Below, piece by piece: positions 1,802 to 7,537 of a stretch of 64,000 bases of DNA. Below the pieces are notes generated by a model. The model worked only from the letters and a program-made list of their open reading frames with translations, did no database searches and was not told where the DNA came from. This DNA is from an uncultured Planctomycetota bacterium. Its GTDB lineage: Bacteria; Planctomycetota; Phycisphaerae; UBA1845; UTPLA1. The stretch covers positions 186,001-250,000 of the forward strand of contig CAADGE010000027.1 of assembly GCA_900696465.1 (NCBI GenBank), in the 5' to 3' direction. The position numbers and the translations under genes are program-made. The first letter of the stretch is position 1; every line of letters starts with the position of its first letter.

Positions 1802-2629
1802 GCGGAGGGATTGTAGCCGGCTTGAAACCCATCGCCACAAACAGGCCGGACGGGGCGGGGCGACTTGGGCCGCAGGATCGGGGGCGGTATGGCAGCCCGG
1901 TGTCGCCAGGATCCGAATAGAGAGGCACTCATTTCGGATGCGAGGGCTCGCAGATTTTCGGGGAGAGTTGGGACCCTAGGCCGTGTGACCATGCCCGGTC
2001 GTGCAGACGGTTCATCGCAGGACACTTGGCGAAGGAGCAACGGTGTCGAGAGTTCGGGCAGGGGTCACCCGGAGCAACACGGCAGGCAAGGATTGCCAAT
2101 TTTCAGGCGCGAGTTGAGGCGGGCGATTGCACTTTCGAATGACCTCCCGCTGGGTCTTAAGGCAGTTTATCAGTATTGCGGCGAGGGGTTGAACGTGGGC
2201 GACCGCGATATCAGTCCTGCCGCGCGGTATCGCGTTTACAAATCAGTGACAGAGCGCTCGGAGGTGAGCGCCAAAAATGCAAACAAACTTAATAAAGAAC
2301 GGCATGTTTCGCTTGTAACGATTGTGAGGTTCCGCCGATGAGAGTGATCGTTTCCATGCAGCGACATTCGTTCGCCGCAGATGGAAGCGAAGTGGAAGAG
2401 TTCGGTTACCTGGCGCGAGTGATCGATGCAATCGGACCATTCTGGTGCGAGCGACATGCCCTTCATGACCGGCGGGCGCGTCCCGTTCAGGTCTCTCGCG
2501 GGCGATGCCCGTGTGTCTTCGACGTTCATAATCGCGGTACGTCTAAGTCGTGGACGTGTGTTTCACGACGACGGCAGGAGCCACGACGCCGCCGCGAGGC
2601 GAGTTGCCAATGGCAAGGAGTAAGCAGCT
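1802..2629. other. Long gene-poor region upstream of the NP-repeat gene
   Basis: 828 bp without a gene I can support. Frames of 60-160 codons exist on both strands, but they overlap each other and lack ribosome sites or motifs. An AT-rich patch near 2270-2300 (AACTTAATAAAG) stands out against the GC-rich surroundings and could be regulatory. No clear -35/-10 pair for the downstream gene was found. Confidence 0.45.
1810..1815 (-). promoter_or_regulatory. -10 element of the LON-domain gene (leaderless arrangement)
   Basis: TACAAT on the minus strand (5/6 to TATAAT) ends 8 nt before the ATG at 1801, which places transcription start within about 2 nt of the start codon. The -35 region is weak (TTGTGG-like at 19 nt). 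Confidence 0.45.
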
Positions 2630-4183
2630 ATGTTTAACCCATTCGGATTTCAGGGAGGTACGGCCACCCTCGATCCCCAGTCACCCGGGATGAACGGGCA
2701 GACCCGAATCGCGGAAGCGATGAACGGCTTTGCCCCGAACACAACCGGTTACCCGAACTACGCGGCGGCCGGTTTCGTGCAACCGAACTATGCGAACGTG
2801 CCCTACGGCGTAAACACGACACCGTTCGTGAACTTCGCCGCAACGCAGACGGCGGCAGGTATTCCGCAGAACATCGGTACGCCCGGCTACACGCCGTACG
2901 TTCAGCCGTTTCCCTGCCCGACGACGCCGGTGAACTATGCTTCGCCGATTCCCGCCGGCATGCCGTACAACCCCTACGCGGCACCGGTGAACTTCGGCAC
3001 GCCGTTCGGTTCTCCGACGAATCCCTTCGTCAACAACTTCCCGGTTCATCCGTGGATTCAGGCCGGCATTCCGGTTCCCCATGCGTTCGCCGGTTTCAAC
3101 CCGGTCGGTGCCTTCCCGGCATACGGCACGAATCCCTTTGTGGGCATCCCCGCGGCGACACCGTTTGCCGGCGCCTGGCCGACCAACCCCTTCGTGCAGC
3201 CCGGTATCAACCCTTTCTGCGGCATCCCGACGATTCACCCGATCACGGGGCAGCCGATCGTGAATCCCTTTTCTCCGATCGGTGGCGGCTTCAACACGCC
3301 GGTCTGGGGCCTCAATAACCCGATGGCGACTCCGTACAGCGTCAATCCGATGGCACTCACGCCGTTCGTGAATCCGTCGATCGGTTTCCGCAATGCCTTT
3401 GGCCAGCCGGTCGTGAATCCGTGGTCCAATCCCTGGCTGTGCGGCATCAACCCGATGACTCCGGGGTTTTACTCCCCTTTTTTCTCCAGCCCGGTGATCC
3501 CCACGGGCCAGTTCCTGCCGTCGGTCGCAAATCCCTTCGCGGTCAATCCCGTCGGCGTGCATCCGTTCGGAACTCTTCCGCAGGGAATCGCGCCGCTGGG
3601 AACGCATCCCGCGGGTCTTCCGTTCGTCGCGGGTCCGCTCGGCGGCCAGTTCGGAAATCTTCCGTTCGGCGCCGGCATTGACCCGGTGACCTACAACTAT
3701 CTCTGCAACCTGGCCTGCTGCAATCAGCCGGGTTCGTGCTTCTCGCCGATGGGCTTCGGCGGCTACTCTCCGCTGGGCAACCTCAACCCGATCATCGCGG
3801 CTCGAATGGGCTTGGGCATCAATCCCTGGTCATCGATCGGATCGTTCAACCCGACGGCTGCATGGTCGACGCAGCCCACCTTCGGCGCTTTCGGCGGTGC
3901 GACGAATCCCTGGTTCGGCGGCATTCAGTATCCATGGACCAGCGGCATCAACCCGTTCTTCGCGGCCAATCCGCTGAGCAACTCATTCTTCACGGCGTGG
4001 AATAATCCGATCGCTTCGATCGGTTATCCGAACCTGCTGAACCCCTTCTGCGGTCCGACGGGCTGCACGATCCCCGGTGCGACGATGCCCTGGAGCGGTT
4101 CGAACGGATCGGGCTTCGGAAGCTTCGGCACGCCGAGCGTGTTTTCGAGCGTGAGTTCGTGCTGGCCGACCAACTGCAACTGA
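2630..4183 (+). CDS. Low-complexity Asn-Pro-rich repeat protein, function unknown
   Basis: 517 aa that I do not recognise. It is a degenerate repeat built around Asn-Pro followed by an aromatic or hydrophobic residue: nine NPF, four NPW and three NPM, about two dozen NP dipeptides in all, often as '(T/I/V)NPF(V/C)GIP'. By my count there are only about six Asp/Glu/Arg/Lys residues and no lysine. Gly, Ile, Thr, Ala and Phe are abundant, and there are about 11 Cys. No signal peptide or membrane segment is visible. An AGGAGTAAG Shine-Dalgarno precedes the ATG. The next gene starts 65 nt downstream, so the two are probably co-transcribed. A self-assembling or structural protein is one guess; nothing in the sequence proves it. 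Confidence 0.8.
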   Translation: MFNPFGFQGGTATLDPQSPGMNGQTRIAEAMNGFAPNTTGYPNYAAAGFVQPNYANVPYGVNTTPFVNFAATQTAAGIPQNIGTPGYTPYVQPFPCPTTPVNYASPIPAGMPYNPYAAPVNFGTPFGSPTNPFVNNFPVHPWIQAGIPVPHAFAGFNPVGAFPAYGTNPFVGIPAATPFAGAWPTNPFVQPGINPFCGIPTIHPITGQPIVNPFSPIGGGFNTPVWGLNNPMATPYSVNPMALTPFVNPSIGFRNAFGQPVVNPWSNPWLCGINPMTPGFYSPFFSSPVIPTGQFLPSVANPFAVNPVGVHPFGTLPQGIAPLGTHPAGLPFVAGPLGGQFGNLPFGAGIDPVTYNYLCNLACCNQPGSCFSPMGFGGYSPLGNLNPIIAARMGLGINPWSSIGSFNPTAAWSTQPTFGAFGGATNPWFGGIQYPWTSGINPFFAANPLSNSFFTAWNNPIASIGYPNLLNPFCGPTGCTIPGATMPWSGSNGSGFGSFGTPSVFSSVSSCWPTNCN

Positions 4184-4248
4184 CGCAGCGGTCGAAGCAA
4201 GTTTCTCCGGGAATAGATGACGGGTGATGCCCGAGAAGGATGCGCACG

Positions 4249-5838
4249 ATGAACTGTATCAGGCAGAGACTGGTAAGTCTTCAGAATCGCGCGCGACATC
4301 TGCAGACGAGTCTGCGGCGCTGGTCGTTGTATGACGACGGCGTGTCGCGCGAGATGAAGGAAGACCTGCTGGCACGATTCACTCCGGCGGAAGAGACGAC
4401 GTTTGAGTCTGACCTGGAGCTTACCAAGGCACGGCTGCGGCCGGTCTCGGTGCAGCTCAAGACCGTTTCCCGCTGGTACGACTACGTTCTAGATCAGGTC
4501 AGCGAGCAGCTTGATCGCGCTCGCGGCCTGCTGGACCAGGGCCGTCCGCAGGAGGCCATGACGGTCCTGAACGATGTGGAAACACGGATGCTGATCCCGA
4601 ACGAACAGACGCTCGGGTATGTCTTCCGCACGTTTCGACAACACACCAGCCACGAGTTTCATCAGAAGCTTTCGACGATCGACGCAATTCTCCGCGATCT
4701 GTACCTGCCGACGGCGAAGCTCGCGCACCAGCGCGGGCTGTTGCCGCGGGAATGCCTCTCACGTACGCCGCTGGCTTACATCACCGATGTGCCCGACGGA
4801 GAGGTTACCTGGCGGCAGCACGTACAGCACGCGGTCAACGTCGGACGCCGGATTCCGATGTCGCTGATGGCGATTCCTCGGAAGTATGTGGCCCAGCCGT
4901 GGAACCTCGTCGCTCTGGCGCACGAAGTGGGGCTGTGTCTGTATGCCGAGTTGGACCTCGGCTGGGAAATCGCTTCGAAGCTTCAGACGGAATCGAACAG
5001 CGCGGGCGTCAGTCCGCAAACGGCTCCCGTATGGGCCCGCTGGCACGCGACGCTGTTCGCTGACGTCTTCGGCACGTTGAAGCTGGGTCCGTCGTACGTC
5101 AGCGGAATGATCGAGCTGCTCGGCGGAGACTCGCTCTCCACGGTTTCGTTCGCGCCGACGACGAACGTGCCTCCTGCCTATCTGCGCTGGCACGTCATGC
5201 TTCAGACGCTGGGGCTGATGAAGTTCAGCGACCCGGCGCGAGAACTGTTCAACCAGGTGCACCTGCTGTGTGGCGATCCGAATCAGATCGCCATGCGGCT
5301 GGGACCAACGTGGATGCAGCTCGGCAATGAGTGCCGGGCAATCGCGGGGCTGATCGCGCTTTCACCTTGCCAGAAGCTCGGTGGCGCTCGCGTGGTGGAC
5401 GTTGCCCAGCCGTTTACGGCGACTGAGTTCAACACGGCCATGAAGGTGAAGGACCTGCTCCTGGCCGGGGACGAGTCCTGCTCGTCAGATGATGCCTTCA
5501 CCTGGGCCGAGCCGCTGCACCATACGCCGACGCCGACGCACATCGCACTGGCGGGGTTGCGGGCTGCATACGACGCTACGGTCGATTTTGAGACATCGCG
5601 CCGGCTGTGGATCCGCTTCTGGTGTCTGGAGCAGTATCTGACCGGCAGCACCGATCAGACGCGCGAGAAGGAAGACCGTGAATTCGCCCCGGGCGACGCG
5701 GTACTCAAGCAGATCGCACTGCACTCGATGCCGTCGATGGCCCTGCAGGGGGCCGGTGCGCAGAGCTGGAGCTATGCGCCGACCGGTCCGGCCGTGGCGA
5801 TGATGCCCAACGCGGCAATCGCGCCGGCCATGTCGTAG
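4249..5838 (+). CDS. Metallopeptidase-like protein with a degenerate HEXXH site, function unknown
   Basis: 529 aa. The N-terminal third is helical and Arg/Glu/Gln-rich. A central segment reads 'ALAHEVGLCLYAELDLGWE' (about residues 223-241), then 'WARWHATLFADVFGTLKLGP' near 263. This resembles gluzincin layouts where HEXXH is followed by W..E.FAD.FG, but the second His is Leu (HEVGL) and the expected Glu before LFAD is Thr. Catalysis is therefore doubtful. The ATG at 4249 is preferred because AGAAGGA (4234-4240) sits 8 nt upstream; the ATG at 4240 overlaps that site. It follows the NP-repeat gene by 65 nt and ends at a strong terminator, so the pair forms one unit. The family is unknown to me. 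Confidence 0.75.
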   Translation: MNCIRQRLVSLQNRARHLQTSLRRWSLYDDGVSREMKEDLLARFTPAEETTFESDLELTKARLRPVSVQLKTVSRWYDYVLDQVSEQLDRARGLLDQGRPQEAMTVLNDVETRMLIPNEQTLGYVFRTFRQHTSHEFHQKLSTIDAILRDLYLPTAKLAHQRGLLPRECLSRTPLAYITDVPDGEVTWRQHVQHAVNVGRRIPMSLMAIPRKYVAQPWNLVALAHEVGLCLYAELDLGWEIASKLQTESNSAGVSPQTAPVWARWHATLFADVFGTLKLGPSYVSGMIELLGGDSLSTVSFAPTTNVPPAYLRWHVMLQTLGLMKFSDPARELFNQVHLLCGDPNQIAMRLGPTWMQLGNECRAIAGLIALSPCQKLGGARVVDVAQPFTATEFNTAMKVKDLLLAGDESCSSDDAFTWAEPLHHTPTPTHIALAGLRAAYDATVDFETSRRLWIRFWCLEQYLTGSTDQTREKEDREFAPGDAVLKQIALHSMPSMALQGAGAQSWSYAPTGPAVAMMPNAAIAPAMS

Positions 5839-5853
5839 TCGACATCACCCACG

Positions 5854-5957
5854 CCGCGTGCCGCCTGCGGCGGCTTGTCGCATGCACACGCGGCGGCTTT
5901 TGAATTTTTGGCGTACCCCGTCGGTCGTGAACACGCGGCCGGCGGGGTTTTTATTTT
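5854..5957 (+). terminator. Tandem hairpins with intrinsic terminator after the NP-repeat unit
   Basis: The downstream hairpin is CCCCGTCGG (5916-5924) pairing with CCGGCGGGG (5939-5947, one G-U), directly followed by TTTTTATTTT (5948-5957): a textbook intrinsic terminator. An upstream structure pairs CCGCGTG near 5855 with CACGCGG near 5886 around a GCCGC/GCGGC stem and is followed by CTTTT, possibly a first terminator. Confidence 0.85.
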
Positions 5958-6358
5958 AGGGTGGTTGTGAAAAGCCAAGATGAGAAACTGGCGATGGGAG
6001 GGGGTTTGCAGGATGTTGATCGGGCATCGAGAAGCTGGGCCGTCGGGTTGCAGAGGGCCGCCCCGAATTTTCGATTTCTTCCTTCACATCCGGCACGGAA
6101 TGTTATACTTACCTGCACGGGCAGGGAGGAATCACAGAAAGGTGCCATCTGTTTCGCGTGTGTGTGCGCCGTAGTGCGCTGAAGTAATGTGCATACACGC
6201 GACCACTAACTCGCGCCAGTGTATCACAAGCGTGATAGTCCGTGATCAGATCAAACGGACTTGAACCGCAACCGAATGGCCCGTGCGTATCTTGTCGCCT
6301 TCTTCGACGCCCCGCGCGGACGGTCTTAACTACCTCGCTTTCAGAAGGGAATCCACGA
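5958..6358. other. Intergenic region upstream of the propeller gene
   Basis: About 400 bp with no supported gene. It has a possible promoter (-35 TTCACA 6083-6088, -10 TATACT 6104-6109, spacing only 15) and a short palindrome TATCAC-AAGC-GTGATA at 6222-6237, about 120 bp before the gene start, which could be an operator. Confidence 0.4.
6083..6109 (+). promoter_or_regulatory. Possible promoter of the YWTD propeller gene
   Basis: TTCACA and TATACT are each 5/6 to consensus but separated by only 15 nt, which is suboptimal. The predicted leader is about 240 nt. Confidence 0.35.
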
Positions 6359-7537
6359 ATGCTGATAGGAATCGTCCACAGGCCGGTCCATGTTGCGATG
6401 GTCCTCGTGCTCATGATCCTCAGTCGATCTGACCCGGCTGCCATGGCGCAGGATTGCGACGGCAACGGCGTGCCGGATGCGATCGACATGGCGGGCCGCG
6501 TGTACTGGACGGAGAACGATGCGCTGAAAGTCCAGCGGTCGCAGCTCGACGGCGCCAACGTGGAGGACCTTGTGACGATGGGATTGATGAGTCCCGAAGG
6601 CATTGCCGTGGACCAGGCGGCCGGGAAGATGTACTGGACGGATCAGTCGACGAAAAAAGTCCAGCGAGCCAACCTGGATGGAACCGGCGTTCAGGACCTC
6701 GTATCCTCCGGTCTGATGTCACCGTACGGCCTCGCGCTGGATGTCGCGGCGGGCAAGGTGTATTGGGTGGACAACGGCGTCAAGAAGATTCAGCGGGCCA
6801 ATCTGGACGGTTCAAACGTCGAGACCATCCACACGGCCGCAATGGGCGACCTACGCGGTCTCGACGTCGATCCTGCGGGTGGAAAGATCTATTGGGTGGA
6901 TAACAACGGCAAGATACTCCGCGCCAATCTCAACGGCACGAGCGTCGAAAACCTTGTGACGACGGGGCTGATGAATCCCTCGGACATCGCCGTTGACCCG
7001 GCGGGCGGCAAGATCTACTGGACCGACTGGGGCAGTCAGAAGATACAACGGGCAAACCTGAACGGCACAGGCGTGGAGGACCTGGTCACGACGGGGTTGA
7101 ACTTTCCGGTCGGTATCGCCCTGGACCTGGGCACCGGCAGGATGTACTGGACCGACAATGGCGACCGAACCATCATGCGTGCCAATCTGAACGGCGGCAA
7201 CGTTCAAGCCATGGTCAACATGGGCCTGGACGGACCGGAGTACATCGCCATCGCGGCGCCACGACCGGACACCGACGGCGACGGCGTGATGGACGATTGC
7301 GACGGGTGCCCGAATGATCCGGCCAAGAGCGAGCTGGGCGCGTGCGGTTGCGGTCAGCCGGATGCAGACCTGAACGGCGACGGCGTGATCGATTGTCTGG
7401 TATCGACGAACATGATGGATACCAACGGTGTGTGCTGCGCACCGAATGCAATGCCAACGGTCGGTCTGATTCTGCCGATGGTCATGATTGGCTGGAAGTA
7501 CCGGCGCTCGCGAGGATTCGCTGGCAACAAGCCCTAG
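6359..7537 (+). CDS. Secreted six-bladed YWTD beta-propeller protein with C-terminal anchor
   Basis: 392 aa. An N-terminal signal peptide ends near AAMAQ, followed by a Ca-binding-type stretch DCDGNGVPDAID. Six YWTD-class blades follow (VYWTE, MYWTD, VYWVD, IYWVD, IYWTD, MYWTD), each with 'RANLDG' strands, matching the six blades of LDL-receptor-type propellers. A thrombospondin-3-like motif comes next (DTDGDGVMDDCDG... DLNGDGVIDC). The end has a short hydrophobic segment (VGLILPMVMIGW) and a basic tail (KYRRSRG), like C-terminal sorting signals. The start at 6359 is set by AGAAGGGA 9-16 nt upstream; a longer frame from 6242 lacks a signal peptide. Probable role is an extracellular binding scaffold; the ligand is unknown. 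Confidence 0.85.
   Translation: MLIGIVHRPVHVAMVLVLMILSRSDPAAMAQDCDGNGVPDAIDMAGRVYWTENDALKVQRSQLDGANVEDLVTMGLMSPEGIAVDQAAGKMYWTDQSTKKVQRANLDGTGVQDLVSSGLMSPYGLALDVAAGKVYWVDNGVKKIQRANLDGSNVETIHTAAMGDLRGLDVDPAGGKIYWVDNNGKILRANLNGTSVENLVTTGLMNPSDIAVDPAGGKIYWTDWGSQKIQRANLNGTGVEDLVTTGLNFPVGIALDLGTGRMYWTDNGDRTIMRANLNGGNVQAMVNMGLDGPEYIAIAAPRPDTDGDGVMDDCDGCPNDPAKSELGACGCGQPDADLNGDGVIDCLVSTNMMDTNGVCCAPNAMPTVGLILPMVMIGWKYRRSRGFAGNKP

Follow-up and report, generated by a model that had tools for sequence, protein, structure and literature searches.

Low-complexity proteins rich in asparagine, glycine and proline are known from bacteria, examples are the PPE-type and curli-like proteins. In physical terms the closest described case are the FG domains of the nucleoporin Nup98. 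PMC4283134 gives a median of 2.5 % charged residues for these domains, and for ten of them a content of FILVM residues of 13-17 % and a density of 6.3-10.3 FG per 100 aa; it attributes their phase separation to the poor quality of water as a solvent for them. The introduction of one Asp per repeat abolished the phase separation, according to PMC9918544.

In the window, i.e. the whole analysed stretch of 64,000 nucleotides from an uncultured Planctomycetota bacterium, we studied a gene for a nearly charge-free protein together with the gene behind it, termed the partner (Table 1). Like Nup98-type FG domains, the protein has almost no charge, is hydrophobic for a chain that is putatively disordered, and presents aromatic stickers in uncharged spacers. 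Unlike them, it is bacterial, contains more proline, is more hydrophobic, often uses NPF, PF or NPW as sticker, and has an N-terminal motif and a terminal cysteine. With PPE-type and curli-like proteins it shares the low complexity and the richness in Asn and Gly, but neither a family match nor a Sec-like N-terminus was present. The partner aligns over a metal-binding region with nine Planctomycetota proteins of zincin type; it differs from these relatives in the lack of HExxH, in other residues at the position of a downstream Glu and in its constant place after a charge-free gene.

A quantitative comparison was possible for composition. Charged residues made up 0.5-1.6 % in 12 of 13 copies of the protein (8.1 % in the copy L025), thus the 12 lie within the limit of about 2.5 % taken for Nup98-type domains from PMC4283134. 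The FILVM content of the 12 copies was 23-29 %. On the hydrophobicity scale given in PMC4283134 the charge-free copies had means of 0.468-0.505, comparable with globular proteins, for which the 13 partner proteins served as stand-in (0.426-0.442). The FG density fell short: per 100 aa, the window copy has 2.5 and the 13 copies span 0.5-4.1, against the roughly 6-10 reported in the same source, so the analogy is one of physics and not of membership. Judged from composition and patterning, the likeness to nucleoporin FG domains appears to be physical, and common descent is not expected. Because 12 copies have less charge and more FILVM than Nup98, self-association of the charge-free proteins would be expected by this analogy.

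Table 1 Positions of the features within the window
Feature	Position	Strand	Remark
Shine-Dalgarno sequence AAGGAG of the charge-free gene	2615..2620	+	direct reading of the sequence
Charge-free low-complexity protein gene, 517 aa	2630..4183	+	open frame; copies in 12 genomes
N-terminal motif NGQTRIAE, codons 22-29	2693..2716	+	[N/D]G-x(2,3)-R in 13/13 copies; proposed docking element
Cys, codon 516, next to last	4175..4177	+	one of the last three residues is a Cys in 13/13 copies
Partner gene, 529 aa, read as pseudo-zincin	4249..5838	+	downstream of every charge-free copy; homologous to HExxH proteins
Degenerate metal motif HEVGL of the partner	4921..4935	+	second His of HExxH absent
WHATLFAD of the partner	5041..5064	+	Thr at the position of the relatives' Glu (would-be third ligand), alignment A3
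Terminator-like hairpin, 15 pairs, T-rich tail	5915..5948	+	after the partner gene

The charge-free gene in the window

The window has 63 mechanically determined ORFs with a length of 250 aa or more, and among these the charge-free protein had the lowest proportion of charged residues, 1.2 %; the next-lowest was 12.6 % and the median 24 %. A first-pass annotation of this DNA had counted 517 residues with about two dozen NP dipeptides, no lysine and about six charged residues, and these counts were exact: 24 NP, no Lys and six D/E/K/R (three Arg, two Asp, one Glu), in addition to five His. The most frequent of the residues tallied were Pro (85), Gly (67), Asn (51) and Phe (47). The NP dipeptides comprised nine NPF, four NPW, three NPM, two NPV, two NPI and one each of NPY, NPS, NPT and NPL, which gives 14 NPF/W/Y in total; 13 FG and 18 PF dipeptides were also present. 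Shuffling of the protein's own sequence yielded on average 8.4 NP and never more than 16 (n = 2000); in a further set the average was 8.5 and the highest count 19 (n = 1000).

The first-pass annotation had noted a strong ribosome binding site. AAGGAG stands in front of 10 of the 13 copies, TAGGAG in front of two and CGGAGG in front of one; in most other copies the open frame is longer, and the start within it was picked according to the ribosome site and the similarity to the other copies. The absence of a signal peptide, also claimed there, extended to all copies: by residue criteria no Sec-like N-terminus was present in 13/13, the first 20 residues being free of K/R and the longest run of A/V/L/I/M/F/W/C being four. 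No Pfam or NCBIfam model matched the protein at E values up to 1, in line with the earlier statement that no such family is known; thus no known structural or secreted family was hit, and the frame is present in relatives. A search of an open-access literature library found no description of the family, and one directed at Pro- and cystine-rich planctomycete walls likewise gave no match. A structure model computed from two sequences was unusable, with a mean pLDDT of 28.8, a value that from so few sequences (one or two) is no proof of disorder; the sole helix in this very low-confidence model covered residues 23-32, at the N-terminal motif.

Distribution of the gene pair

When 41 genomes were searched with the plain protein sequence, relatives of the charge-free protein turned up in two others, both of the window's genus. 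The partner is better conserved and was therefore used as a beacon for locating further copies. In this way the first-pass annotation's proposal to look for homologs beside genes like the one at 4249-5838 was borne out: the pair was present in 13 copies in 12 of 17 genomes of the Planctomycetota family f1 (8 of 12 genera), that is in 11 genomes besides the window's own, and a charge-free gene was located directly upstream of the partner on the same strand in 13/13 copies. These upstream frames encode 363-517 aa of the same character. Since the orthologs are related, counts over the 13 copies are not independent. One genome, G013, contained two copies, L021 and L025. The second copy of the pair, L025 (contig 1, 7691-8950, minus strand), has relaxed the low-charge rule and has 22 % Pro and a single Cys at its end, while L021 keeps the rule.

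In the multiple alignment the identity to the window copy was 27-42 %, and 40-48 % of the pairwise aligned positions were identical. Two multiple alignments of the charge-free proteins were made, A4 with all 13 and A5 with 12 of the 13 (without L025). All pairwise alignment scores exceeded those of 20 shuffles each, with z values of 4.5 to 19.9, and of 2.6 to 14.5 for the body of the protein. Chance is excluded by the other 12 copies, which share both the design and the location, and, as judged by these sequences, the charge-free gene is real.

Five genomes of family f1 were without the pair, and both the partner search and the full-length charge-free profile were empty there; among these is G016, which is 85 % complete and whose genus otherwise carries the pair. 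That the same five genomes lack both genes suggests that, across the genomes examined, the two genes occur together or not at all. Among the other 97 genomes of the order, one distant relative of the partner was found (G107). An N-terminal profile of 46 positions recovered in the 114 genomes of the order its 13 source sequences with E values up to 2.4e-7, by construction because it was built from these 13 N-termini; no further match lay below E = 0.001, the next being 0.0016. In 392 genomes of the phylum this profile hit the window's genome and gave two weak matches, G181 (2.1e-4) and G122 (4.0e-4). We rejected them as relatives, since they look like chance: by eye, one was a frame with WD40-like repeats, and the other ran antisense to a response-regulator-like gene. 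Paralogs or copies without a partner were also rejected, because the full-length profile gave one copy in the window's own genome and none in the five partner-less genomes of family f1; in G013 it recovered one of the two. The viral contigs searched contained no relative, and a scan of genome contigs confirmed none for the charge-free protein and one for the partner, on a PLA2 contig.

Two-gene unit and surroundings

The partner gene lies on the same strand and begins 65 bases past the stop codon of the charge-free gene. The likely start is 4249, as had been assigned before: the longest possible frame extends up to 4240, but conservation in the alignment sets in with the Met-Asn at 4249. A strong terminator-like hairpin follows the partner gene, none is listed between the two genes (4184-4248), and the two genes are thus interpreted as one unit. 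No sigma-70-like promoter was found in 2300-6300. Of the earlier claim of a co-transcribed partner, the linkage stood in 13/13 copies; the co-transcription of the two genes is probable from their position.

A stand-alone LON substrate-binding domain protein (PF02190, E 4.7e-28) is encoded divergently from the pair at 1088-1840 on the minus strand. A LON-domain gene was located beside the pair in 6 of 13 loci, with L051 too short to tell, and because of this limited recurrence it was rejected as a conserved third gene. No third gene recurs across the pair loci of the family, where the neighbours were annotated for the LON gene alone. LDL-receptor class B repeats are best known from eukaryotic propellers; on the plus strand of the window, six such repeats were matched at 6242-7537 (PF00058, E 9.3e-45).

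Conserved design of the charge-free protein

All 13 copies start with MF, MY, MI or MM, followed about 20 residues on (32 in L025) by [N/D]G-x(2,3)-R. This N-terminal motif is the best conserved stretch of the protein; in L022 and L024 it is altered to NGASxR without an acidic residue behind it. The first 45 residues of 12 copies hold 32 of 59 charged residues, compared to 6.4 expected for a uniform distribution. Charge occurs outside the motif too, R254, D351 and R392 being kept in the three copies of the window's genus. The number of Cys per copy varied from 1 to 14.

Aromatic residues accounted for 10-17 % across the copies. Their spacing from residue 47 on was more even than in 95 % of 1000 shuffles for 12 of 13 copies by a patterning measure, rewritten from recall of a published one, and for 8 of 13 by gap variation. 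In L017 the patterning measure was not significant (15 % of the shuffles were as low), and by gap variation its aromatics were more clustered than in 98 % of the shuffles. The evenness by gap variation was also not significant in L019, L024, L025 and L051.

The first-pass annotation had presented the protein as an Asn-Pro-aromatic repeat protein. This hallmark did not survive the comparison. Apart from the window copy, NP exceeded all 1000 shuffles in L017, L018, L020, L021 and L023, the latter with 29 compared to 5.6 expected, but over the 13 copies the counts span 5-29. In L024 they were at shuffle level (5 versus 6.3) and in L022 near the shuffle mean, and in five more copies (L019, L025, L026, L027, L051) within the shuffle range, so the NP-aromatic repeat was rejected as the defining unit of the family. 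What persists instead are the low charge, the motif and the terminal Cys.

Three ortholog pairs were examined for selection with our own Nei-Gojobori script. The dN/dS ratios were 0.16 (L022/L024) and 0.31 (L026/L027) for close pairs of other genomes, and 0.54 for the window copy and L017, a pair with 44 % identity and an uncertain alignment. Amino acid differences involving D, E, K or R numbered 0 of 62, 0 of 68 and 0 of 232 in the three pairs, whereas the partners of the same genomes showed 2 of 13, 23 of 131 and 14 of 114. Among the possible non-synonymous single-base changes 20-21 % would create a charged residue; at that rate the chance of zero charged differences is about 7e-7 and 7e-8 for the first two pairs, calculated as a simple power and with mutation bias left out of account. 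The lack of charged differences against several in the partners indicates that charge exclusion is kept amid sequence change; on these comparisons, it is what persists while the sequence of the charge-free protein drifts.

The partner protein and its HExxH relatives

A profile search with the partner revealed nine distant relatives of 393-537 aa in other Planctomycetota families (L041, L043-L050), with forward matches of E 1.5e-17 to 2.4e-6, and 1.7e-19. In the reverse direction, a profile of the nine relatives matched the window's partner with E = 9.5e-32. In alignment A7, made of the nine relatives, 9/9 retain HExxH as well as a Glu that lies three residues behind an invariant Trp, a combination which is the signature of a zincin metallopeptidase. 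The partners differ: HExxH was present in 0 of 13, including L024, which ends at a contig edge but covers the region, and the region reads HEVGL or similar. Alignment A2 comprised nine of the 12 partner copies then known, without L021, L023 and L025, and alignment A3 eight partners with eight of the nine relatives. The eight partners of A3 have T, V, I or C at the position of the downstream Glu. In four of these eight (L018, L019, L020, L022) the residue just ahead of the expected ligand position is a Glu, thus a changed metal site is conceivable. In L021 and L025 this region was unmatched. Since the relatives keep HExxH and Glu, the partners are without HExxH and the reverse match is strong, we read the partner as a pseudo-zincin whose evolution went along with that of the charge-free protein and which probably has lost catalysis.

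A profile search of the PDB with the partner gave no credible sequence relative, and a structure model from one sequence was unusable (mean pLDDT 38.5). The relatives gave chance-level matches alone against Pfam (eight of nine scanned) and NCBIfam (six of nine scanned). The HExxH family is sparse in the phylum: at E values up to 0.001 the profile of the relatives hit 14 of 392 genomes, the window's own included. Charge-free proteins beside the nine relatives were rejected, as no ORF of at least 90 aa with less than 9 % charge was present in the 12-14 kb around each. A comparison of the nine neighbourhoods, in two of which the relative was located by pattern, gave no lead. Just downstream of an HExxH gene, a 503-aa gene in L058 (7244-8755) has a match in the L057 region, which belongs to a second genome of the genus g86.

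Proposed mechanism and alternatives

The two genes are a real module under selection, carried by a single Planctomycetota family, and nothing matched it in the libraries searched. As far as sequences go, we regard as established the gene family, the strict pairing, the motif, the terminal Cys, the exclusion of charge, the aromatic spacing in most copies and the lack of HExxH in the partners. As best explanation we propose, tentatively and with somewhat more doubt than confidence, a cohesive, self-associating disordered protein with an inactive protease fold as its holder or chaperone. The charge-free protein would form a long, probably disordered chain from which charge is excluded and whose aromatic stickers are mostly evenly spaced. 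Charge exclusion and even stickers would make water a poor solvent, so that the chains may associate with one another and form a condensed or gel-like phase, for which the cytoplasm is the most likely place. Docking of the chain on the partner may be the task of the N-terminal motif (NGxxRIxE), situated in the segment with about half of the charges, and the terminal Cys would permit cross-linking or anchoring. The partner may be a catalytically dead zincin-type fold, its former substrate cleft binding peptide without cutting, and would act as a dedicated chaperone, scaffold or anchor. From this design we infer disorder, self-association, location, binding of the motif by the partner, loss of catalysis, the role of the Cys and the purpose of the system. 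Selection against charge and the mostly even aromatics fit a self-associating disordered protein. The idea of self-assembly in the first-pass annotation is plausible; the compartment lining also suggested there is unsupported.

Extracellular materials often contain uncharged aromatic low-complexity sequences, and rapid divergence is common among surface proteins. The charge-free protein may thus be a structural protein of the surface or the extracellular space, such as a coat, stalk, adhesive or matrix component, exported without a Sec signal and cross-linked via Cys, with the partner as export or maturation factor. The richness in Pro, the scattered Cys, the Cys close to the end in all copies and the rapid divergence of the charge-free protein speak for this serious but doubtful alternative, whereas the absence of a Sec-like N-terminus from every copy and of a third gene recurring at the pair loci, where neighbours beyond the LON gene are unannotated, speaks against it. 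Among known ligand motifs is NPF, which eukaryotic EH domains recognise, and the NP-aromatic tripeptides could be short linear motifs that make the protein a multivalent hub for a receptor. The excess of NP in the window copy, its 14 NPF/W/Y and the NP enrichment of the five other copies above all their shuffles agree with a hub; the span of NP counts, their shuffle-like level in L022 and L024, the unremarkable level in five further copies, and a low charge kept in 12 of 13 copies while NPF is not kept render it improbable.

The conserved N-terminus ahead of a variable body, next to a protease-derived neighbour, resembles a precursor with a leader that is processed into peptides, the partner being the processing or recognition protein. 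A maturation of this kind is most improbable in view of the partners, none of which has HExxH, of a body that exceeds 300 aa and shows no evident core unit in repeated form, of alignments in which no conserved cleavage site is apparent past the motif, and of the absence of a third gene recurring throughout beside the pair. That the frame is a non-gene or decaying low-complexity sequence might be suspected from the empty Pfam and NCBIfam searches and the two further hits in 41 genomes; it is scarcely credible for 13 copies that share their location and have ribosome sites, with dN/dS ratios of 0.16 and 0.31 in two close pairs, charge excluded and alignment scores of the body above the shuffles. 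The cohesive, partner-held protein may be specified further as a dedicated cohesive-phase protein of some Planctomycetota, in which a nucleoporin-like solution was reached independently: the almost charge-free, aromatic and disordered chain would form a selective gel or line a compartment, the inactivated partner would anchor it or keep it soluble by way of the N-terminal docking motif, and the terminal Cys would lock it. In this full form we consider it unlikely.

Significance

The distant relatives of the partner point to an HExxH family of Planctomycetota that is nameless in Pfam and NCBIfam. The pair itself presents a clean evolutionary case, a fast change of sequence in which the physical character is held, with a co-inherited pseudo-protease beside it. 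If the charge-free protein condenses, the pair would offer a genetically simple system of two bacterial proteins in which to study how charge exclusion and aromatic spacing build cohesive phases, in a phylum with long-debated internal compartments.
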